The position numbers and the translations under genes are program-made. From assembly GCA_019115765.1 (NCBI GenBank), contig DXCZ01000062.1, positions 1 through 35,128 on the forward strand: a stretch of 35,128 nucleotides of DNA, written 5' to 3'. The notes under the pieces were generated by a model. It saw nothing but the letters and a program-made list of their open reading frames with translations, did not search any database and was not told the DNA's origin. This stretch comes from Candidatus Mediterraneibacter stercoripullorum (GTDB taxonomy: Bacteria; Bacillota; Clostridia; Lachnospirales; Lachnospiraceae). Shown piece by piece: positions 103 to 33,160 of the stretch. Position 1 is the first letter of the stretch; every line of letters starts with the position of its first letter.

Positions 103-2010
103 ATGCTGATTTATGAAGGAACAAAAGACAATTTCTTAACAAGCGTAGAACAGGATACGATTGCTTTGGAAATTGAAAACAATATTTATGAAAGAATGCA
201 CCGGCACACAGCAAAAAATGAATTTCATGCCTGGGAAAACTCTATGGAATATATGTATAAGGTCCTGAATGATCAGGATATTCCGTCGGATGCAGGGATT
301 GCTATTGAATACAATATTCCTCAGACATCGAAACGTGTTGATTTTTTGATTTCTGGTTATGGTAAACATGAAGATGCCAATGTTGTTCTGATTGAACTGA
401 AGCAGTGGGATGAACTGGAAGCGGTTTCGGGGAGGGACGGCCTGGTACAGACTTATACCGGAAATGCTGTGAGGCAGGTTGTTCATCCTTCATATCAGGC
501 ATGGTCATACGCTATGCTGATCAGCGATTACAATGCTTCTGTACAAGAAGGCATGATTTCGATTTTTCCATGTGCTTATTTACATAATTACAGACGGCAT
601 GAGCATGATCCGATTGATGCCGAGCAGTATGATATATATCTGGAAGATGCACCGGCATTTACTCGCGGTGAAGTTACAAAGCTTAGAGATTTTATTAAGA
701 AGAGTATCAGAATCGGTGACAATAAAGAATTGATTTATAAGATTGATTCGGGACGTATTAAGCCATCGAAAAGTTTACAGGATTCTATTGCAAAAATGAT
801 GAAAGGCAATCGCGAATTTATTATGCTGGATGAACAAAAGGTTGTTTATGAGGAAATTCTGGATGAAGCAAGACTTTCTGTTGCGGACGGCAATAAGCGC
901 GTTGTGATTGTAAAAGGTGGCCCTGGAACGGGAAAGAGTGTAGTGGCAGTGAATCTGCTTGCCGAATTGACGAAAGAGGATCAGTTCTGTCAATATGTAT
1001 CCAAAAATTCCGCTCCAAGAAATGTGTATCGAAAAAAGCTGAAGGGCAGTATAAGAAAAAGCAGTGTCGATAATATGTTTAAAGGTTCAGGAATTTATAC
1101 TGAAACAGAAAATAATATGGTTGATACAGTTCTTGTCGACGAAGCACATAGACTGAATGAAAAATCAGGAATGTTCCATAACATGGGTGAAAACCAGATT
1201 AAAGAAATCATTCATGCAGCGAAATGCAGCGTGTTTTTTATCGATGAAAGCCAGAGAGTCACATTACAGGATATAGGAAGTGTAGGAGAGATAAGAAAAT
1301 GGGCTGAAGAGGAAAATGCTCAGATTACAGAAATGGAACTAGTGTCTCAATTCAGATGTAACGGGTCAGACGGATATCTGGCATGGCTGGATCATACTTT
1401 GGAAATTCGTGATACTGCCAATTTTGATATGGCAGATATCGATTATGACATCAGGATACTTGATTCACCTGTTAAAATGCAGGAGATGATTATTGAAAGA
1501 AACCGTACATCGCATAATAGAGCAAGGATTCTGGCAGGATACTGTTGGGATTGGAAGAAAGAAGGAGTGAACGATCCATCTGTATATGATATAAAAATCG
1601 GAGATTTTGAAATCAGCTGGAATTTGAAAAATACAACTACTTATGCTATTGATGAAGATTCCGTCCAGGAAGCCGGATGTATACATACCTCTCAGGGATT
1701 GGAATTTGATTATGTCGGAGTCATCATTGGAGATGATATGCGATATGAAAACGGAAGGATTGTTACAGACTTTACCAAACGAGCCAGGACGGACCAGTCA
1801 CTGAAGGGGATTAAAAAGTTGTATAAAGAAAATCCGGATCGGGCGGAGAAAGAAGCAGATGAAATTATAAAAAATACTTACCGGACATTGATGACTCGGG
1901 GCATGAAAGGCTGTTATGTCTATTGTACAGATCAACGGCTGTCTACTTATCTGAAAAAATGTCTGGGCATACAAAAAGCGAGGGTTAAAGATGAAAAAGG
2001 AAACGATTGA
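103..2010 (+). CDS. PD-(D/E)xK nuclease–DUF2075 (Schlafen group 3-like) helicase
   Basis: Predicted 635-residue nuclease-helicase. The N-terminal third shows a PD-(D/E)xK pattern: Asp80 in KRVDFLISG, then Glu98-x-Lys100 in VLIELKQW. The helicase part has Walker A GGPGTGKS (272–279), Walker B VLVDEAHR (Asp346/Glu347), a SQFRCNG motif, and late motifs IHTSQGLEFDYVGV and LMTRGMKGCYVYC typical of DUF2075. Proteins of this class process DNA or RNA, and nuclease-DUF2075 proteins have been linked to phage immunity; the staphylococcal Nhi nuclease-helicase is a possible analogue from memory. The start at ATG 103 follows AGGGGTG at 91–97. The end overlaps the MazG gene by 20 bp, which implies co-translation. 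The domain call is strong; the role in defence is inferred from context. Confidence 0.88.
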   Translation: MLIYEGTKDNFLTSVEQDTIALEIENNIYERMHRHTAKNEFHAWENSMEYMYKVLNDQDIPSDAGIAIEYNIPQTSKRVDFLISGYGKHEDANVVLIELKQWDELEAVSGRDGLVQTYTGNAVRQVVHPSYQAWSYAMLISDYNASVQEGMISIFPCAYLHNYRRHEHDPIDAEQYDIYLEDAPAFTRGEVTKLRDFIKKSIRIGDNKELIYKIDSGRIKPSKSLQDSIAKMMKGNREFIMLDEQKVVYEEILDEARLSVADGNKRVVIVKGGPGTGKSVVAVNLLAELTKEDQFCQYVSKNSAPRNVYRKKLKGSIRKSSVDNMFKGSGIYTETENNMVDTVLVDEAHRLNEKSGMFHNMGENQIKEIIHAAKCSVFFIDESQRVTLQDIGSVGEIRKWAEEENAQITEMELVSQFRCNGSDGYLAWLDHTLEIRDTANFDMADIDYDIRILDSPVKMQEMIIERNRTSHNRARILAGYCWDWKKEGVNDPSVYDIKIGDFEISWNLKNTTTYAIDEDSVQEAGCIHTSQGLEFDYVGVIIGDDMRYENGRIVTDFTKRARTDQSLKGIKKLYKENPDRAEKEADEIIKNTYRTLMTRGMKGCYVYCTDQRLSTYLKKCLGIQKARVKDEKGND

Positions 2011-2329
2011 ACAGGTATTAAAATTTAGAGATGAACGGAACTGGAAGCAATTTCACAATCCGAAGGATCTGGCAATCTCCATCAGTCTGGAGGCTGCGGA
2101 GCTGCTGGAGGTTTTTCAGTGGAGTGCAGAAGACGTCTGGTGTGAGAAGAAAAAAGAAAAAATCAGGGAAGAACTTGCAGATGTATTGAATTACTGTATT
2201 TTAATGGCGGATACCTGTGGGCTGGATATGGATGAAATTATTCAAGAAAAAGTCAGGAAGAATGCAGAGAAGTATCCGGTGGAAAAAGCGTACGGGCATA
2301 AGGAAAAGTATACTGAGCTTGGAGAATAA
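1991..2329 (+). CDS. MazG-like nucleotide pyrophosphohydrolase
   Basis: A 112-residue all-alpha NTP pyrophosphohydrolase of the MazG/RS21-C6 superfamily, which hydrolyses (d)NTPs to (d)NMP and pyrophosphate with Mg2+. The family signature is visible: Glu34-x-x-Glu37 in SLEAAELLEVFQW and Glu61-x-x-Asp64 in REELADVLNYCILMAD, the acidic metal ligands. The length fits the single-domain dCTPase-like subgroup rather than full MazG. It starts inside the upstream nuclease-helicase gene and ends 1 bp before the next gene, so it is in the middle of an operon. In this setting it may tune nucleotide pools or remove modified nucleotides; the substrate cannot be read from sequence. Confidence 0.85.
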   Translation: MKKETIEQVLKFRDERNWKQFHNPKDLAISISLEAAELLEVFQWSAEDVWCEKKKEKIREELADVLNYCILMADTCGLDMDEIIQEKVRKNAEKYPVEKAYGHKEKYTELGE

Positions 2330-2330
2330 T

Positions 2331-3434
2331 ATGCAGTTACCATATTCTGATATTCTGGATATAGCCCATTTTTCCAGATTGTTTGACAATAAAAGCGAGT
2401 GCTATAAATTATTCTGGTTTCAGGCAATTGCACGGAAAATTAAAGAGGGGCACAAAATAATTACATTCGAAGCATTGATTGATGAAATGATTGCAGATGC
2501 ATGGTATATGGTTTCGGAGTATCATTTAAATCTTGGCCCTAATGATGCTCTGGAGAGAGTGGTTCATCGACTGAGTGAGATCAGTCATATGAAATCCAGT
2601 GAGAAAAAGGAAGTGATTCTGGAGTATTTAGCGGCTTGCGAGGATAAGGAAGTTACCGCCATGAAGCGTACTTTATCGCAGAACGTGCCTTATCGATTAC
2701 AGGCACCTTTTATGGAGTCTATGAAAGGAAAAGAGTGGAACAGATCTGGGAAAAATCTTGCGGCAAGAATTAATCAGGAAAAAAGACTGATATATTATTT
2801 TTTACAATTCTGCGGTCTGAACACCCAGATTCAAATCCAGACAGAATGGGCGGATTATATCGAACGCAATTACGAAATCATACAGGGCTGGATTGAATTA
2901 AACCTGATTCAATATCTTCAGAGAAGGAATCCCAGTGTCCCGGGAATTGTGGACAAGCTATCTCCGCCAAAAGAGCGGAATCTGGAAAAAGTAAAAAAAT
3001 ATTGGAAAATGATTGTTGCCATAAAACCTGTTTACGAAATCTATGGAGAAAAACCGCTGAACGAAAAAAATATATCTATTGATCATTTTGTGCCCTGGTC
3101 CTATGTGGCGCATGATGAACTGTGGAATCTGACACCTACAACTCGAAGCATTAACAGTAGTAAAAGCAATAGCCTTCCGGATTGGAATTCCTATTTCCCG
3201 ATGTTATGTAAAAGTGAATACTTATCCTATAAATTAATGTGGGAATATCCGGAAATCCATACGGCTTTTGAAAAATGTGCCAGGGAGCATCTGAATAATC
3301 AAGAGATCAGACACAAACTTTATCAGCAAGGCCTGTCGGAAAGAGAGTTTTCAGAGCGTCTGGAAGAGGTTATTCTTCCGGTCTATAAGTCGGCCAAAAG
3401 TATGGGATTTTCTAATTGGAGACTGAAGGTGTAA
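2331..3434 (+). CDS. HNH endonuclease-domain protein
   Basis: A 367-residue protein when started at ATG 2331, which follows GGAG (2321–2324) by 6 bp and lies 1 bp after the MazG stop. An upstream in-frame start at 2217 would overlap the MazG gene by 113 bp and is unlikely. The first ~240 residues are helical and not recognised. The HNH module is near residues 246–285: ISIDHFVPWS with Asp251-His252, Asn266 in LWNLTP, and Asn275 with Lys278 in the family's N..KS.SLP pattern. The fold predicts a metal-dependent nicking or cutting nuclease. The four tightly packed genes from 103 to 4017 indicate one transcript. The target specificity is unknown. Confidence 0.8.
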   Translation: MQLPYSDILDIAHFSRLFDNKSECYKLFWFQAIARKIKEGHKIITFEALIDEMIADAWYMVSEYHLNLGPNDALERVVHRLSEISHMKSSEKKEVILEYLAACEDKEVTAMKRTLSQNVPYRLQAPFMESMKGKEWNRSGKNLAARINQEKRLIYYFLQFCGLNTQIQIQTEWADYIERNYEIIQGWIELNLIQYLQRRNPSVPGIVDKLSPPKERNLEKVKKYWKMIVAIKPVYEIYGEKPLNEKNISIDHFVPWSYVAHDELWNLTPTTRSINSSKSNSLPDWNSYFPMLCKSEYLSYKLMWEYPEIHTAFEKCAREHLNNQEIRHKLYQQGLSEREFSERLEEVILPVYKSAKSMGFSNWRLKV

Positions 3435-3438
3435 GGTT

Positions 3439-4017
3439 ATGTGCGAGTATTATGAAATCAATGCAAAGCAATATGCCAAAGAAACATTTTCTGCTGATAT
3501 GTCGGAACAATATAAGAGATTTCTCCCTCTACTGAGAGAAAGGGCAAGGATTCTAGATTTGGGAAGTGGCAGCGGGCGTGATGCGTGTTATTTTCAAAAT
3601 CATGGATATCAGGTGACTGCATTGGAACCATCAAAAAATCTTTGCAGAGAGATTCGGAAAGTTTTCTCAGGGGAAATTGTATGTTCTGATATTCAGAGTT
3701 ATCAGCCGGATCAACGATTTGATTGCATTTGGGCTTGTGCGTCATTGATTCATTTACAAGAAAAAGAAATCCTTCACTTTTTTGAAAAAATTGATCTGTT
3801 TTTAAATGATAATGGGATTGTATATCTTTCCGGGAAAAATGGAATTTCTACGGGAGAAGCGGCGGATGGGCGTTATTTTCTTGAATTTACGGACCAATTA
3901 GTGGAAAAGATTCTATTGGCCAACAGACATATATATCTTAAAGAGCTGTGGTATACGGAGGATGCGAGTGGAAGAAAAGGATTTCGATGGATGAATGTGA
4001 TACTCAGGACGGGATAG
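3439..4017 (+). CDS. class I SAM-dependent methyltransferase
   Basis: A 192-residue Rossmann-fold methyltransferase. Motif I is ILDLGSGSGRD (about residues 38–48), followed by the acidic end of strand 2 (VTALEPS) and a motif-IV-like region FDCIWACASLIHL. The last sequence has no N/D-PP-Y/F motif, so this is not a classical DNA adenine or N4-cytosine methylase; the pattern resembles TehB/UbiE-like small-molecule enzymes. It starts 4 bp after the HNH stop, with GTAAGG as a short ribosome site. No target-recognition domain is visible, so pairing with the HNH gene as a restriction-modification system is not supported. The substrate is unknown. Confidence 0.78.
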   Translation: MCEYYEINAKQYAKETFSADMSEQYKRFLPLLRERARILDLGSGSGRDACYFQNHGYQVTALEPSKNLCREIRKVFSGEIVCSDIQSYQPDQRFDCIWACASLIHLQEKEILHFFEKIDLFLNDNGIVYLSGKNGISTGEAADGRYFLEFTDQLVEKILLANRHIYLKELWYTEDASGRKGFRWMNVILRTG

Positions 4018-4093
4018 AAAGATAGTGACTACTAGCAGAATTTCTATCATTAGTGGGAAAAGATAAATTGTGATACAATATTTACGATTACAA

Positions 4094-4108
4094 AACCTCG
4101 GGGAGGTT
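4094..4108 (+). promoter_or_regulatory. hairpin occluding the Shine-Dalgarno of the helicase gene
   Basis: AACCTC (4094–4099) and GAGGTT (4103–4108) form a perfect 6-bp stem with a GGG loop. The GGGAGG ribosome site at 4101–4106 lies within it. If formed in the mRNA it would hide the Shine-Dalgarno of the gene starting at 4116. A possible -10 (TACAAT, 4074–4079) lies just upstream, so the hairpin could sit near the 5' end of a separate transcript. Confidence 0.45.
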
Positions 4109-4115
4109 ACTGGTG

Positions 4116-7055
4116 ATGCAGTTGCAGAATGATAAAATAACAACATTACAGACAGCGATCCAGACAGCATATCTGGATCATACTATAAATTCTAATCTGG
4201 CATATCGACCAGAATTTGTTTCAAATAATTATAAGCTCGGGAAAAAAGTTCTTGTTTCAATTGAAGAAGAATTACAAAGATGTGAAGAATTTTGTATCAG
4301 TGTTGCTTTTATTACCAAAAGCGGAATTACGCCACTTCTTCAGACTTTAAAAGATCTGGAACAAAAAAATATTCCGGGGAAAATCCTGACGACAAATTAT
4401 CTTATGTTCACTGAGCCAGAGGCCCTGGAAAAGCTGGCAGGATTAAAAAATATCGAATTGAAAATGTTTCTTACGAGTGCAGAAACCGGCGGATTTCATA
4501 CAAAGGGATATATCTTTCGTAAAGAGGAAATTTATCGGATTATTATCGGAAGTTCGAATGTAACACTCAGTGCTATCACAAAGAACAAAGAGTGGAATAC
4601 CAAAATTGTTTCTACAGAACAGGGGGAGTTGACTCAGGCAGTTTTACAGGAATTTGATGAGCTATGGCGGGATAAGCATACCTTAGCTTTTGAAGATTTT
4701 ATTGATTCTTACCGTCAAGAGTATCTGAATGAGAAAATGATCCGTAAGCAGAAACAGCAGGCGGTATCAGAGCAGGTAGTAGAGCTTGAAAATTATCTGT
4801 TAAAGCCTAATAAGATGCAGATCGCTTTTGTGAAAAATGTAATGGAAATGAGAGCACAGCATATAGATAGAGCTCTTCTTTTAAGTAGTACGGGGACAGG
4901 AAAATCTCTGGCTTCTGCGTTTATGCTACGGGAGATGGGAACAAAAAGAGCGCTTTTTGTTGTACATAGAGAACAGATTGCAAAACAGACGATGAAAAGT
5001 TATAAAAGAGTTTTTGGTTCGTCAAGAACTTATGGGCTTTTGTCGGGAAATAGCAGAGAGCTTGAGGCAGATTTCTTATTTGCTACTATGCAAATGTTGT
5101 CGAAAGAAGAGATTTTATCCCATTATATCCCCGAAGAGTTTGATGTGATTATTTTGGATGAATGTCATCATGCGGGTGCAGAGAGCTACCAGAAGATTAT
5201 GAGGTATTTTAAGCCAAAGTTCTGGCTGGGTATGACTGCCAGTCCAGATACTAATCAGTATGATATCTACTCGATTTTTGATCATCATATTGCCTATGAA
5301 ATACGTCTTCAGCAAGCTCTTGAGGAAGATTTACTATGCCCTTTCCATTATTTTGGAATTACAGACTTGGAGATAAATGGAGAAGTATTTGATGACAATG
5401 CGGGTGTAAAGAACTTTTCGAATTTGATTTCTGGTGCCCGAGTCGATTACGTGATTGATAAAGCAAATTACTATGGATTTAGCGGAGATCGAGTAAAAGG
5501 TTTGATTTTCTGCAGCCGAAAAGATGAGGCAAAAGAATTGTCGAAAAAGTTTAATGAACGGGGATTGAGAACGGAGGTCCTGACTGGAGAAGATGATCAG
5601 GAACGACGTGAAAGTGTGATTGCCCGCCTGACAAATGATGAAGATGGTGATGCTCAGCTGGATTACATTTTTACCGTAGACATTTTTAATGAAGGTGTCG
5701 ATATCCCGGAAATTAATCAGGTTATTATGCTGAGACCGACTCAATCTCCGGTAGTGTTCATTCAGCAGTTAGGGCGAGGACTCAGAAAATATGAAGGAAA
5801 AGAATATGTAGTGATTCTTGATTTTATTGGGAATTATATGAACAACTTTATGATTCCTATCGCTTTGTCTGGGGACAGAAGCTATAACAAAGATGCAATG
5901 CGCCGTTACATTCGGGAAGGAGCCAGAGTTATTCCGGGAAGTTCTACTATTCACTTTGATGAAATATCAAAAAAGAGAATCTATGCGTCTATTGATACAG
6001 CAAGAACCAATGATATGAAGTTGCTTAGAGAATCTTATAGAGCTTTGAAATATAAGTTGGGAAGAATTCCGACTATACAGGATTTTAAGAAATTTGGATC
6101 TGTGGACGTGACGAAAATTTTCGAAAAGTGTGGATCTTATCATAACTTTTTGAAAAAATACGAAATAGAATATCATGCGCATCTGACGAATCAGGAAGAA
6201 ATTATAATAGAATATTTTTCAAAGAAACTGATAGCTTACAAAAGAATTCATGAACTGGAAATGCTGAAAATGTTGATCTGCCGGGGAAATCGGCTTCTGC
6301 AATATCGGAAACGCTTACAAGAAAAATATCATGTGAGCATGAATGAACAGGTAGAGAGATCGGTGATCAGCAATTTGAAAAATGAATTCCCGAAAGAAGA
6401 AGAGCGCCGTAAATATTCGGAATGTGATCTGGTAGAAAAAAATACAGATGGAAGTTATTCTCTTTCCTCAAAATTTCAAAAAGCACTCTTGAATGAAAAC
6501 TTTAAGCAGATGATCTTGGAATTGCTGAATTTTGGTATAGAACAGTGGAAAGAAAAGTATGGGCAAATTTATAGAGATACCAATTTCACGTTATATCAAA
6601 AATACACATATGAAGATGTATGCCGTTTGCTTAACTGGAAGAAAAATTTGAATGCTCAGAATATCGGAGGCTATTATTATGACAGTGATACAAAGACGCT
6701 TCCTGTATTTATTAATTACCACAAAGCAGAAGATGCAATTGCGTATGAAGATCGGTTTGTTTCGGAGGGGCATTTAATAGCGCTTTCCAAACATCCTAGA
6801 AAAATTACATCCAGCGATGCCGTCCATATTTACAAGCAATCCGAAGAGGATAAAAATAATCGGATTTTCTTGTTTGTTAGAAAAAATAAAGATGATAACG
6901 AAGCAAAAGAGTTCTATTTTCTGGGGGAAATCTTTGCAGAGGGAAAGCCGAGACAGATTTATATGGAAAAAACACACGACAATGCCTTTGAGATAGACTA
7001 TCGATTAGATGTGCCGGTAAGAAGTGATATCTATGATTATATTGTGAGTGATTGA
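4116..7055 (+). CDS. PLD-like nuclease–DEAD/DEAH helicase–DUF3427 protein
   Basis: A 979-residue three-part enzyme. Numbering here is from the alternative GTG at 4113; subtract one for ATG 4116. The N-terminus carries a single phospholipase-D-type half-motif: His129-x-Lys131 (GGFHTKGYIF) and GSSN at 146–149. An SF2 helicase core follows: Walker A SSTGTGKS (258–265), DECHH (349–353), TAS (375–377), a motif V region with FNEGVDIPE, and motif VI QQLGRGLRK (551–559). The C-terminal ~350 residues match the DUF3427 style (IGGYYYDSDTKTLPVFINYH). Such proteins are predicted DNA or RNA translocases with a nuclease head. A 98-bp gap, a weak promoter and an SD hairpin separate it from the upstream operon. 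The catalytic PLD residues seem incomplete for a monomer; the family dimerises. Confidence 0.88.
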   Translation: MQLQNDKITTLQTAIQTAYLDHTINSNLAYRPEFVSNNYKLGKKVLVSIEEELQRCEEFCISVAFITKSGITPLLQTLKDLEQKNIPGKILTTNYLMFTEPEALEKLAGLKNIELKMFLTSAETGGFHTKGYIFRKEEIYRIIIGSSNVTLSAITKNKEWNTKIVSTEQGELTQAVLQEFDELWRDKHTLAFEDFIDSYRQEYLNEKMIRKQKQQAVSEQVVELENYLLKPNKMQIAFVKNVMEMRAQHIDRALLLSSTGTGKSLASAFMLREMGTKRALFVVHREQIAKQTMKSYKRVFGSSRTYGLLSGNSRELEADFLFATMQMLSKEEILSHYIPEEFDVIILDECHHAGAESYQKIMRYFKPKFWLGMTASPDTNQYDIYSIFDHHIAYEIRLQQALEEDLLCPFHYFGITDLEINGEVFDDNAGVKNFSNLISGARVDYVIDKANYYGFSGDRVKGLIFCSRKDEAKELSKKFNERGLRTEVLTGEDDQERRESVIARLTNDEDGDAQLDYIFTVDIFNEGVDIPEINQVIMLRPTQSPVVFIQQLGRGLRKYEGKEYVVILDFIGNYMNNFMIPIALSGDRSYNKDAMRRYIREGARVIPGSSTIHFDEISKKRIYASIDTARTNDMKLLRESYRALKYKLGRIPTIQDFKKFGSVDVTKIFEKCGSYHNFLKKYEIEYHAHLTNQEEIIIEYFSKKLIAYKRIHELEMLKMLICRGNRLLQYRKRLQEKYHVSMNEQVERSVISNLKNEFPKEEERRKYSECDLVEKNTDGSYSLSSKFQKALLNENFKQMILELLNFGIEQWKEKYGQIYRDTNFTLYQKYTYEDVCRLLNWKKNLNAQNIGGYYYDSDTKTLPVFINYHKAEDAIAYEDRFVSEGHLIALSKHPRKITSSDAVHIYKQSEEDKNNRIFLFVRKNKDDNEAKEFYFLGEIFAEGKPRQIYMEKTHDNAFEIDYRLDVPVRSDIYDYIVSD

Positions 7056-7102
7056 TGCAAAAGGCATAAGAGAAAATACAAGAAAAAGAATGGAGAAATG
7101 TG

Positions 7103-7489
7103 ATGAAGACCGTACGTGTAGTAGCAGCAGTAATTAGAAAAGATAATAAAATTTTTGCCACACAAAGAGGATATGGAGAGTTTAAAGATGGCTGGGAATT
7201 TCCCGGTGGCAAGATTGAAGAGGGGGAAACACCTGAACAGGCACTTGCGAGAGAAATTAAAGAAGAATTGGATACCGATATCAATGTGGGAGAATTGATT
7301 GATACGATTGAATTTGATTATCCGAATTTTCACCTGTCTATGGACTGCTTTTGGTGTGAAATTGTGCAGGGAGAATTGGAACTGAGGGAGCATGAATCTG
7401 CAAAATGGTTGTCGAAAGAGAAATTATACACTGTGGATTGGCTTCCGGCAGATGTTGGATTGATTGAAAAGATACAGGAAAAATTGTGA
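7103..7489 (+). CDS. Nudix (MutT-type) nucleoside triphosphate pyrophosphohydrolase
   Basis: A 128-residue Nudix hydrolase with the full box: GGKIEEGE, then nine residues, then REIKEELD, matching G-x5-E-x7-R-E-U-x-E-E-x-G-U except for Asp/Thr near the end. The fold and the short length fit MutT-like (d)NTP sanitisers such as 8-oxo-dGTPases. I chose ATG 7103, six bases after GGAGA (7092–7096); GTG 7100 is in frame immediately before it. It lies 47 bp after the DUF3427 helicase and likely shares its transcript. It is the second nucleotide pyrophosphohydrolase in the island, beside the MazG-like protein, which suggests that the island works on nucleotide pools as well as nucleic acid. Confidence 0.88.
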   Translation: MKTVRVVAAVIRKDNKIFATQRGYGEFKDGWEFPGGKIEEGETPEQALAREIKEELDTDINVGELIDTIEFDYPNFHLSMDCFWCEIVQGELELREHESAKWLSKEKLYTVDWLPADVGLIEKIQEKL

Positions 7490-31114: not shown

Positions 31115-32422
31115 TCAGCGCGGCTGATCTGCTATCCTGATCTGTACAAGAAAATATGGCGCATCGTAATGAAGTTTCCATTGTATATTCGGATAACTGT
31201 CCAGTATTCTGCGGGCGGTATCGAGACCAAGGCCGCTGTGCCCCTCTTTGGTGCTGACATCTTTTCGCATCAGCTGCTGAACAGAGAGGCTCAGCGGTTT
31301 TGTCGTGTTGCGGATCAGGACAGCGGTCTGATCAGATTCACGGATCATTGCCAGATCAAGCTCTTTTTCTTCAGATCCTTCGGCTGCTTCGATGGCATTG
31401 GTCAGAAATATCCCCAGGACACGGATCAGGTCGATCATTTTGACAGGCATCTCTTGGATATCCTCAGTTATCTCAATATGGACATGGATTCCCTGACTGT
31501 GGGCGGCCATAAGCTTTGCGGCGAGGAGACTTTTGAGAGAGTCGTCCTTGATTCGTGAAAGAAGTCCCAGACGATAGTCAGAAGAAGTCATCTCACTTCC
31601 GGCAGGAAGAATCTCCTGATAAAAATATTCTTTCAGGGAAGTGATGTCATCCCGGTCGATATATCCCTTTAATGTAGTCAGCAGATCGATATAATCATGA
31701 CGAAATGCACGCATATCCTGGTAAAGCTGTTCCACTTCCTTTGTATAAGTGTTCAGATTTTCGTATTGTACAAGCTCCAGCTCCAGCTGATTGTCCTTCT
31801 GCATGGTTTTCCCGGTAAAATAGAGAAGAAGTGTGCTTGAGAGAAAGTACAGGGCAAACAGCACAAAGTTAAAAGAAACTACATTCGGCGGATATCCCAG
31901 CCTGTCTCCGTAAATAATCGCAAAGATAAATATTACAGCACTGACGGAAAGATTCAGAAGAAGCATAATAGTCAGGCGTCCGGGACGCTGTTCCTGGATC
32001 CGAAGCTTCTCGTGCAGGATGTATCGGGCAAGGCGGGTCGTCAGGTAGAGAAAAGGAACATAAATAAGCGACATCGGCAGAAGATAGTCCTTGCGCAGCT
32101 CCACAATAGTCAGACCGGATAGAGTATGCATGCAGGTAGCAAGCAAATAATCACTGCATACCAGGAGAAGATACCCGATTAAAAATGAAATAATAGTCTG
32201 GATTTTATAAGTATTGTGCCATGTAAGCAGAAATATTGTGACAAGAAAGCAGAGTGGTGTTACGAGCTGCCCCCAAAATGGAGAAGTCAGTGACATAATC
32301 AGAAAGAGAGACAGGAACAAAGCTGCTTTCCTTTTTGATGATATATTATTATATTGTGTGTTTATGCCTGCAAGAAAAAATCCTGCTGCGCTCAAAAAAC
32401 AAAAGATCAGATGATACAGCAT
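31115..32422 (-). CDS. AgrC-like sensor histidine kinase (GHKL, HPK10 type)
   Basis: 435 residues: an N-terminal sensor of six or seven membrane spans (~1–205), a coiled-coil DHp region with phospho-acceptor His242 (AFRHDYIDL), and a GHKL ATPase with N-box Asn342 (FLTNAIEAAE) and G-box GHSGLGLDT (394–402). The layout is that of peptide-pheromone receptors of the AgrC/ComD group (HPK10). The gene diverges from agrB across 171 bp and is tail to tail with the response regulator. Its ligand is expected to be the product of the adjacent agrBD pair. Confidence 0.92.
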   Translation of the reverse strand: MLYHLIFCFLSAAGFFLAGINTQYNNISSKRKAALFLSLFLIMSLTSPFWGQLVTPLCFLVTIFLLTWHNTYKIQTIISFLIGYLLLVCSDYLLATCMHTLSGLTIVELRKDYLLPMSLIYVPFLYLTTRLARYILHEKLRIQEQRPGRLTIMLLLNLSVSAVIFIFAIIYGDRLGYPPNVVSFNFVLFALYFLSSTLLLYFTGKTMQKDNQLELELVQYENLNTYTKEVEQLYQDMRAFRHDYIDLLTTLKGYIDRDDITSLKEYFYQEILPAGSEMTSSDYRLGLLSRIKDDSLKSLLAAKLMAAHSQGIHVHIEITEDIQEMPVKMIDLIRVLGIFLTNAIEAAEGSEEKELDLAMIRESDQTAVLIRNTTKPLSLSVQQLMRKDVSTKEGHSGLGLDTARRILDSYPNIQWKLHYDAPYFLVQIRIADQPR

Positions 32423-32465
32423 AAATCAAGCCCCTCTTTTCTATCGTATTTTACGGATTTGATTA

Positions 32466-32505
32466 CAAATTCGTTCCTGAACGTCCTCTAAACCTGACGA
32501 ATTTG
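32466..32505. promoter_or_regulatory. inverted repeat between agrC-like and agrB genes
   Basis: CAAATTCGT (32466–32474) and ACGAATTTG (32497–32505) form a perfect 9-bp inverted repeat. Half-site centres are 31 bp apart (about three helical turns), and CGTTC/GAACG (32472–32483) adds an inner palindrome. The position between two divergent genes suggests an operator for both promoters. Confidence 0.55.
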
Positions 32506-32556
32506 AAAACAATAATGCAACATAAGCAAAAAACATTCACAGTCCAAAATAACTGT

Positions 32557-32562
32557 TATAAT
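32557..32562 (+). promoter_or_regulatory. -10 box of the agrBD promoter
   Basis: TATAAT at 32557–32562 lies 31 bp before agrB. The best -35-like sequence (TTCACA, 32536–32541) is 15 bp away. A weak or mis-spaced -35 is usual for promoters that depend on LytTR activators. Confidence 0.55.
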
Positions 32563-32593
32563 TATAGCAGAAAGAAAAAACGAGGTAAATATC

Positions 32594-33160
32594 ATGCTTC
32601 ATAGGGCGGCACAATGGATAACGGAATGGAGTTTTAAGAAGTCTGAAGACAAAGAAGAATGGGAGGTTGTGGAATATGGTATAGAGATTTTTCTTGAAAC
32701 AATTATTAAATTTGCGGCGCTCATGTGCATCGGAGCTGTAATCGGACGACTTACGGAAACACTGTTAGTTTTAGCCGCTTTTTCAGGGATCAGGATTTCA
32801 GCAGGCGGAATTCATGCCAGGACAAGTGCTGGATGCACGGGGATAATGTTATTGGTTGTAGTGGTTTCGCTTATAGCGGCGGATAACGTGTTAATTCCAA
32901 TCTGGGGTAGCGCGGCGTGTTTTGGAATCAGTGCTTTCATTATCATCAGGTATTCGCCTAACGGCAGCCAGTCGAATGAACTGCTGGATAAAGAAGAAAA
33001 GATAAACAAACGAAAATGGGCGCTCTTGACCGTTCTGTTTTTCTGTATCTTATCGATTCATGCTGAATGCAGAAGTTTGATTTTACCATCGGTTTTTCTG
33101 GAGATGGCGACAATTATAATGGCAGCAGTTAAGGAGGGGAAAAGGAATGTGGAAATTTGA
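32594..33160 (+). CDS. agrB: AgrB-type autoinducer-processing peptidase
   Basis: A 188-residue integral-membrane cysteine peptidase that cleaves the C-terminus of AgrD and closes the (thio)lactone ring. The core FSGIRISAGGIHARTSAGC gives Arg67, His74 and Cys81, with the same seven-residue steps as the essential Arg/His/Cys of staphylococcal AgrB. About four to six membrane spans follow. It overlaps the small agrD frame by 14 bp at its end, so they are translationally coupled. Confidence 0.92.
   Translation: MLHRAAQWITEWSFKKSEDKEEWEVVEYGIEIFLETIIKFAALMCIGAVIGRLTETLLVLAAFSGIRISAGGIHARTSAGCTGIMLLVVVVSLIAADNVLIPIWGSAACFGISAFIIIRYSPNGSQSNELLDKEEKINKRKWALLTVLFFCILSIHAECRSLILPSVFLEMATIIMAAVKEGKRNVEI

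Follow-up and report, generated by a model that had tools for sequence, protein, structure and literature searches.

What are two nuclease-helicases, an HNH nuclease, a methyltransferase and two nucleotide hydrolases doing side by side at one end of a clostridial contig? The contig, from Candidatus Mediterraneibacter stercoripullorum (Lachnospiraceae; GCA_019115765.1, DXCZ01000062.1), was analysed as a whole, and its 35,128 nucleotides are called the window here (G000:C23). The six genes, g1 to g6, lie at positions 103 to 7,489. An original prediction, made from the letters alone, took them for a single immune system that cuts phage nucleic acid and cleans or drains the nucleotide pool. Some phages modify cytosine to escape restriction, and Type IV enzymes respond by cutting the modified DNA. 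We find that the block is almost certainly made of three two-gene modules, A (g1 and g2), B (g3 and g4) and C (g5 and g6). It may well be a stack of Type IV-like restriction modules against modified DNA, in which two modules each have a pyrophosphohydrolase dedicated to modified cytosine triphosphates, although we stop short of calling this probable. The six genes are:

g1, 103-2010, + strand, module A: PD-(D/E)xK-type nuclease with Schlafen group 3 helicase (PF09848, 354 bits; D80, E98, K100 and Walker A invariant in 6 sequences)
g2, 1991-2329, + strand, module A: MazG-like, predicted DCTPP1-like nucleoside triphosphate (NTP) pyrophosphohydrolase (PF12643, 86 bits; PDB 4qgp, 83 bits; RS21-C6/DCTPP1, 72 bits)
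g3, 2331-3434, + strand, module B: HNH nuclease (HNH_4, PF13395, 42 bits; D251, H252, N266, N275 and K278 invariant in 24 sequences)
g4, 3439-4017, + strand, module B: small class I methyltransferase, TehB-like (Methyltransf_25, PF13649, 48 bits)
g5, 4116-7055, + strand, module C: PLD-helicase-DUF3427 protein, SauUSI-type Type IV restriction enzyme (PADLOC mREase_IV, 668 bits; PDB 7clg, 653 bits end to end)
g6, 7103-7489, + strand, module C: Nudix hydrolase (PF00293, 75 bits; PADLOC PDC-S07, 178 bits; closest PDB entry 3gwy, 104 bits)

Open reading frames and Pfam domains place these genes on one strand, in the order and at the coordinates first proposed. The gaps from g1 to g6 are -20, 1, 4, 98 and 47 bp; the first three and the 47 bp before the Nudix gene had been predicted, and that between g4 and g5 is added here. 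The ATG start of g3 at 2331 lies within a longer GTG-started frame from 2217, and alternative GTG starts are possible at 4113 for g5 and 7100 for g6. The block is AT-rich, as had been noted, with a GC content of 0.382 against 0.496 at 7490-32500. The window is the entire contig, and only 102 bp precede g1; whatever lay further upstream is cut off, and the block may include additional genes there.

The modules are recognized by the recurrence of their pairs in other genomes. Neighbourhoods came from 60 stretches of a 150-genome family sample, from the best 80 of 581 HNH-seeded genome-wide loci and from 299 phylum genomes; the hidden Markov models of the families were trained in part on loci that were then counted. 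Within 1.5 kb flanks in the family sample, a Nudix gene adjoins the SauUSI-like gene at 25 of 29 loci and a MazG gene adjoins the Schlafen (SLFN) helicase at 22 of 29, which bears out the proposed pairing of nucleic-acid attack with nucleotide hydrolases. DUF3427 and Nudix also occur together at 26 of the 30 best family loci (the window's own included) and, within 2 kb, at 15/16 wide family loci and 11/13 phylum loci. Three arrangements occur in the phylum set: Nudix downstream and co-directional (3 loci), downstream in the opposite orientation (4) and upstream, co-directional (4). SLFN with MazG was found at 9/13 and 6/7 loci in two further sets. No such hydrolase was identified within 1.5 kb flanks of two control genes in the same family, HsdR (0/30) and McrC (0/19); the HsdR loci are centred on the N-terminal domain and the gene itself occupies much of one flank, and the McrC loci are not affected in that way. 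Across the loci read, 88 such hydrolases fall within 492 kb near nucleases, compared with 2 in 787 kb beyond 5 kb. On a Hymenobacter canadensis plasmid (Bacteroidota; L262:706-6868), a Nudix-SauUSI pair is preceded, at a distance of about 1.9 kb, by a gene annotated as HNH endonuclease that does not match the HNH model.

In module C, the Pfam matches of g5 are PLDc_2 (38 bits), ResIII (124), Helicase_C (55) and DUF3427 (263), so a PLD nuclease, a superfamily 2 helicase and DUF3427 are present in one chain, which is the SauUSI-type layout. Judged by its sequence, g5 is a member of the SauUSI-type Type IV family. PDB 7clg, whose structure file names it 'Putative helicase', is presumably SauUSI itself. 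A contig deposited as a Staphylococcus phage (an unverified record) encodes a near-identical protein (2044 bits to 7clg), and the Nudix gene directly upstream of it matches PDB 5x1x at 267 bits. Thus, the SauUSI archetype seems to have a Nudix neighbour too. SauUSI is described as having the order PLD-helicase-DUF3427 and as cleaving DNA with 5-methylcytosine or 5-hydroxymethylcytosine (PMC3874153, accessible text). The original prediction did not recognize the set of six as a named system; of its members, g5 falls in a known family (SauUSI, Type IV), and both g5 and g6 have PADLOC matches (mREase_IV and PDC-S07). PDC-S07 was rejected as a specific marker, as E. coli MutT (131 bits) and NudG (147 bits) match its model as well.

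The partner of g5 suggests a class of substrates. The Nudix box of g6 begins at residue 35, and PDB 3gwy is the top of 10 PDB sequences that match g6 at E <= 1e-8. Reported kcat/Km values for this Bacteroides fragilis enzyme (Q5LBB1), per M per s, are 6.7e6 for 5-Me-CTP, 4.8e6 for 5-Me-dCTP (dCTP, deoxycytidine triphosphate), 4.4e6 for 5-MeOH-dCTP and 8.5e4 for 5-OH-dCTP, with much lower activity on canonical NTPs, in the available portions of PMC5158307. Orf135/NudG and RS21-C6/DCTPP1 are named as specific 5-methyl-dCTP hydrolases in the accessible text of PMC10742078. By PDB sequence matches, g6 is related to the first of these groups and g2 to the second. The g2 and g6 hydrolases thus probably act on 5-substituted (d)CTP.

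This substrate range bears on a second explanation, in which the MazG-like and Nudix enzymes would drain dCTP or other canonical deoxynucleoside triphosphates (dNTPs) during infection while the nucleases cut DNA. Other defences deplete dNTPs. DCTPP1-type enzymes act on dCTP and modified dCTP alike, according to the excerpted text of PMC7162842, as such starvation would need. The preference of 3GWY for modified substrates points the other way, we saw neither a sensor nor a switch in the block, and we regard starvation as very unlikely. The nucleotide-pool role first proposed therefore holds in that hydrolases are paired with nucleases; their likeliest target is the modified-cytosine pool and not the whole nucleotide pool.

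Module A appears to follow the same plan. PF09848, the helicase domain of g1, is presumably the former DUF2075. A PD-(D/E)xK-type motif is visible ahead of it, with KRVDFLI at residue 77 and IELKQW at residue 97. We rejected AbiO and Nhi as identities for g1, since the PADLOC matches (57-61 bits) cover residues 236-420 only and not the full length. The second gene, g2, aligns with DCTPP1 across the MazG-like domain, a sequence relationship to DCTPP1-like dCTP pyrophosphatase from which activity on dCTP, possibly modified, is predicted. The helicase-MazG pair was also found with a different N-terminal region, in which a motif looks by eye like GIY-YIG; Pfam gave no match for this region at E <= 0.001.

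For module B, HNH and methyltransferase genes occur together in 76 of 110 non-redundant HNH loci. Pyrophosphohydrolase-type neighbours were identified in 33 of the 110, in four sequence groups: MazG (17), Nudix (17), a 102-aa 'LVRDKIP' protein (9) and MazG proper (3). The 'LVRDKIP' protein, named by eye and 102-104 aa long, adjoins HNH in L189, L207, L229, L104, L108, L097, L120, L194 and L217; the L189 copy has no Pfam match. Two further protein clusters near HNH, c7 and c10, were rejected as partners, because their Pfam matches are of RNA-uracil-methyltransferase type and to an HD-domain protein. We read them as core genes (RlmD/YhaM-like, by eye) that mark a likely insertion site. Six Lachnospiraceae loci (L173, L186, L196, L197, L200 and L209) have HNH after an HD-domain gene and an RNA-uracil-methyltransferase-type gene, a likely insertion site.

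Only one of 50,697 phage records carries the HNH gene, together with DUF3427, Nudix and methyltransferase genes; it is an unverified contig from faeces. More distantly related HNH genes are carried by plasmids, cyanobacterial ones among them (L232, L233, L234), and have different neighbours, in two cases an AAA ATPase/DUF4276 pair. Among 75 proteins near HNH, two match MafB19/deoxycytidylate deaminase families. A PADLOC tally of 75 near and 75 far proteins (sampled from 227 and 165), which counts members per family and not overall and covers 25 of 58 far families, showed no clear difference in defence enrichment near HNH.

A second pairing, unrelated to SauUSI, was identified outside the window. 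Scanning viral contigs with the 3GWY sequence gave 13 loci, none with DUF3427, so the idea that 3GWY-like Nudix proteins always go with DUF3427 was rejected; this absence led to a different partner. In 12 of the 13, the Nudix gene is followed by one for a 277-aa SRA-HNH family protein (in two pieces in L301), and the thirteenth contig stops there. The protein has an HNH domain and a weak SRA match under the Pfam cut-off. Its PDB relatives are 6ghc, the best ('5-methylcytosine-specific restriction enzyme A'), 5zmm (McrA) and 6ghs (TagI), with matches that cover the HNH part. Viral loci seeded with SRA-HNH itself number 15, of which 12 are contigs already among the 13, and the viral SRA-HNH loci are for the most part closely related; Nudix is present in 13, a DCTPP1-like MazG in one (L317) and neither in one (L316). 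In L317:4001-5180 the MazG follows the endonuclease in the place of the Nudix, and the two matched stretches are about 70 bp apart. SRA-HNH is also present in 66 plasmid records, of which 7 were read. One Priestia plasmid encodes a MutT-HNH pair, and a Paenibacillus polymyxa plasmid (L319:2129-3592) encodes a 487-aa fusion with HNH at residues 303-353 and NUDIX at 361-477, the residues before NUDIX matching the SRA-HNH model. On Selenomonas pSRC2 (L303:5001-8499), a Nudix gene is followed in turn by genes for a weakly EVE-matching protein, a nucleoside deoxyribosyltransferase and a GmrSD-type protein.

Do the three modules belong together? Stacking was evaluated with 32 HNH, 28 SLFN and 33 SauUSI-like places in the 150-genome sample without the genome of the window; 22 of the SauUSI-like places (window apart) came from stretches with wide flanks. 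Pairs within 8 kb number 5 for HNH-SLFN, 6 for HNH-SauUSI and 3 for SLFN-SauUSI, against 0.03-0.04 expected if places, in lists cut by a chosen score, are set uniformly in 150 genomes of 3.0 Mb. Near HNH, SLFN and SauUSI, 63 HsdR places give counts of 0, 0 and 0, and 125 AbiEii places give 2, 0 and 1 against 0.06-0.15 expected, with HNH-AbiEii mildly raised (2 vs 0.14). Ordinary clustering of these two defence families thus does not explain the stacking, and the co-occurrence check that had been proposed comes out in favour of co-location.

The content and order of the stacks vary. The order SLFN-MazG-HNH-methyltransferase-DUF3427-Nudix is that of the window. The same order with the other SLFN type and the nucleotide-modification-associated domain Nmad3 (PF18754, 180 bits) is found in two relatives of the block, Blautia An81 and a Merdibacter with broken genes; identities to Blautia An81 from g2 to g6 are 90, 87, 75, 94.5 and 88%. 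Nmad3 lies between the methyltransferase and SauUSI-like genes at L093:10905-11741 and L161:11709-12508 (in pieces in L161). In L104 (DUF3427 in pieces) and L189 (as far as the contig end) the order is kept, but the 102-aa protein replaces the methyltransferase. Other orders are DUF3427-Nudix-HNH-methyltransferase-MazG-SLFN (L215), HNH-102aa-DUF3427-Nudix-MazG-SLFN (L207), DUF3427-Nudix-MazG-SLFN (G037) and, on a Lactiplantibacillus plasmid, Nudix-DUF3427-MazG-SLFN.

A single fixed six-gene system, as originally proposed, is rejected on these data. Near-complete sets do recur, as the proposal would predict, but an SLFN helicase and a DUF3427-type gene (a label that here includes partial matches) share the cluster at only 7 of 110 HNH loci, the window included, which indicates modularity. 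Each pair recurs mostly apart from the other two, and HNH, SLFN and MazG are all absent within 8 kb at 16 further SauUSI-like family loci, a set without the HNH-fetched ones. We consider one six-gene defence system extremely unlikely.

A shared mobile gene pool could also bring together house-cleaning genes (for 8-oxo-dGTP and the like) and nucleases that have no joint function. Many kinds of genes do occur near HNH, g6 reaches the cut-off of a MutT model, and PDC-S07 takes E. coli MutT as well. Such hitch-hiking accords poorly with the persistence of specific pairs in either gene order and in several orientations, with one fusion, with the hydrolase-free HsdR and McrC loci, and with stacking far above that of HsdR and AbiEii, even though HNH-AbiEii is mildly raised. 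It is quite unlikely.

If the block is indeed a stack of modification-dependent modules, a SauUSI-like g5 would cut DNA carrying 5-methyl- or 5-hydroxymethylcytosine, and the dedicated pyrophosphohydrolases would degrade modified cytosine triphosphates (modified dCTP). A phage that dropped the modification would become visible to ordinary restriction. Module A would be another unit built in this way (nuclease-helicase with DCTPP1-like pyrophosphatase), and module B a third nuclease module, often attached. The hydrolases may be aimed at the modified precursor pool of the phage, a step that we propose with some reserve. Alternatively, they could keep modified cytosine out of host DNA so that the modified-DNA nuclease spares the chromosome, a form of sanitation against autoimmunity. 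The same pairing data agree with such self-protection, and the HNH-NUDIX fusion fits a nuclease that brings its own safeguard. Self-protection requires, however, a kinase that produces the modified triphosphate in the uninfected host. The available sections of PMC10742078 report that phages have kinases for both modified monophosphates and mention indirect evidence from mammalian cells, and we favour attack on the phage pool because of these phage kinases. McrC, moreover, does without such a partner. Both purposes fit, and we rate self-protection as unlikely, though a serious contender.

Several observations weigh against modified-DNA restriction with dedicated hydrolases. g6 stands at the exact cut-off of the NCBIfam MutT (8-oxo-dGTP) model TIGR00586 (97.9 vs 97.9 bits) and far under that of the NCBIfam pyrimidine model (91 vs 156), and against PDB chains it ties MutT (70.0) and NudG (69.7). 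We take an Asp of g6 to be at the base-contact position, equivalent to MutT Asn119 and NudG Asp118. It was rejected as proof of cytosine specificity: Asp is present in 36/36 SauUSI-linked and 7/7 other copies, and by eye in MutT-named PDB chains, and therefore does not discriminate. The best PDB match of g2, 4qgp, bears only the name pyrophosphatase. For g1 and g3, recognition of modified DNA is at the stage of a prediction. In the HNH set, 58/110 loci have the methyltransferase only and 19/110 have neither partner. SauUSI-like genes without Nudix exist (L136, L272, L273), and five of the seven SRA-HNH plasmid loci read have neither hydrolase. The McrC system is 5-methylcytosine-directed, in the accessible text of PMC3874153, yet has no such hydrolase at its 19 loci; not all Type IV systems, then, show the pairing.

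Downstream of the block are genes for Hsp20 and a MatE transporter. At 31115-33160 a GHKL sensor kinase (- strand) and AgrB (+ strand) form an agr-like pair, which adjoins a second AT-rich region where the contig ends.

SauUSI and Type IV restriction are already known, and SauUSI-MutT adjacency is mentioned in passing (PMC7641849 and PMC12813430, as far as accessible). MazG and a nucleotide-modification-associated domain are among the candidates, not yet validated, that DefensePredictor proposes (PMC13092281, excerpt). A full-text literature search, with subscription papers largely outside its reach, found no statement of a coupling between modified-DNA restriction and modified-dCTP hydrolysis in the accessible portions of PMC7159879, PMC9146914, PMC7641849 and PMC10742078. 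There may be a general modification-directed layer of immunity, an extension that we put forward with considerable doubt. In such a layer, cytosine-modified-DNA endonucleases of at least two unrelated families would be coupled to both known 5-methyl-dCTP-hydrolysing families, and Schlafen group 3 nuclease-helicases and this HNH family would be further modified-DNA restriction enzymes of the same design. If true, a modified-precursor hydrolase would block escape at an earlier step, or else account for a host's tolerance of such a nuclease. Concrete predictions follow from the pairing, both for two nuclease families that are as yet uncharacterised and for the Nudix proteins that accompany SauUSI-type enzymes.

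Compared with known systems, the two hydrolases resemble enzymes from other settings. DCTPP1 (RS21-C6) is of the same MazG-like family as g2 (72 bits), but is a mammalian nucleotide-cleaning enzyme. E. coli NudG (Orf135) and 3GWY (Q5LBB1_BACFN), to which g6 is closer than to any other solved structure, are Nudix enzymes active on 5-methyl-dCTP, but are not presented as restriction-module components in the accessible text of the papers cited. The PDC-S07 match of g6 recalls Streptococcus suis, where PDC-S07 and restriction-modification (RM) type IV are co-located in 23/23 cases (PMC12813430), and the MutT homologues adjoining SauUSI homologues in a figure legend of PMC7641849; the available parts of both papers give no mechanism, and the PDC-S07 model is unspecific. 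The McrA-like and TagI SRA-HNH proteins likewise provide a 5-methylcytosine-type endonuclease adjoining or fused to Nudix, but are unrelated to SauUSI and lie outside the window. Staphylococcus aureus SauUSI shares with g5 the PLD-helicase-DUF3427 order and the end-to-end match to 7clg. The difference is that a single polypeptide is enough for SauUSI activity (PMC3874153, accessible text), whereas g5 is stacked with two more modules.

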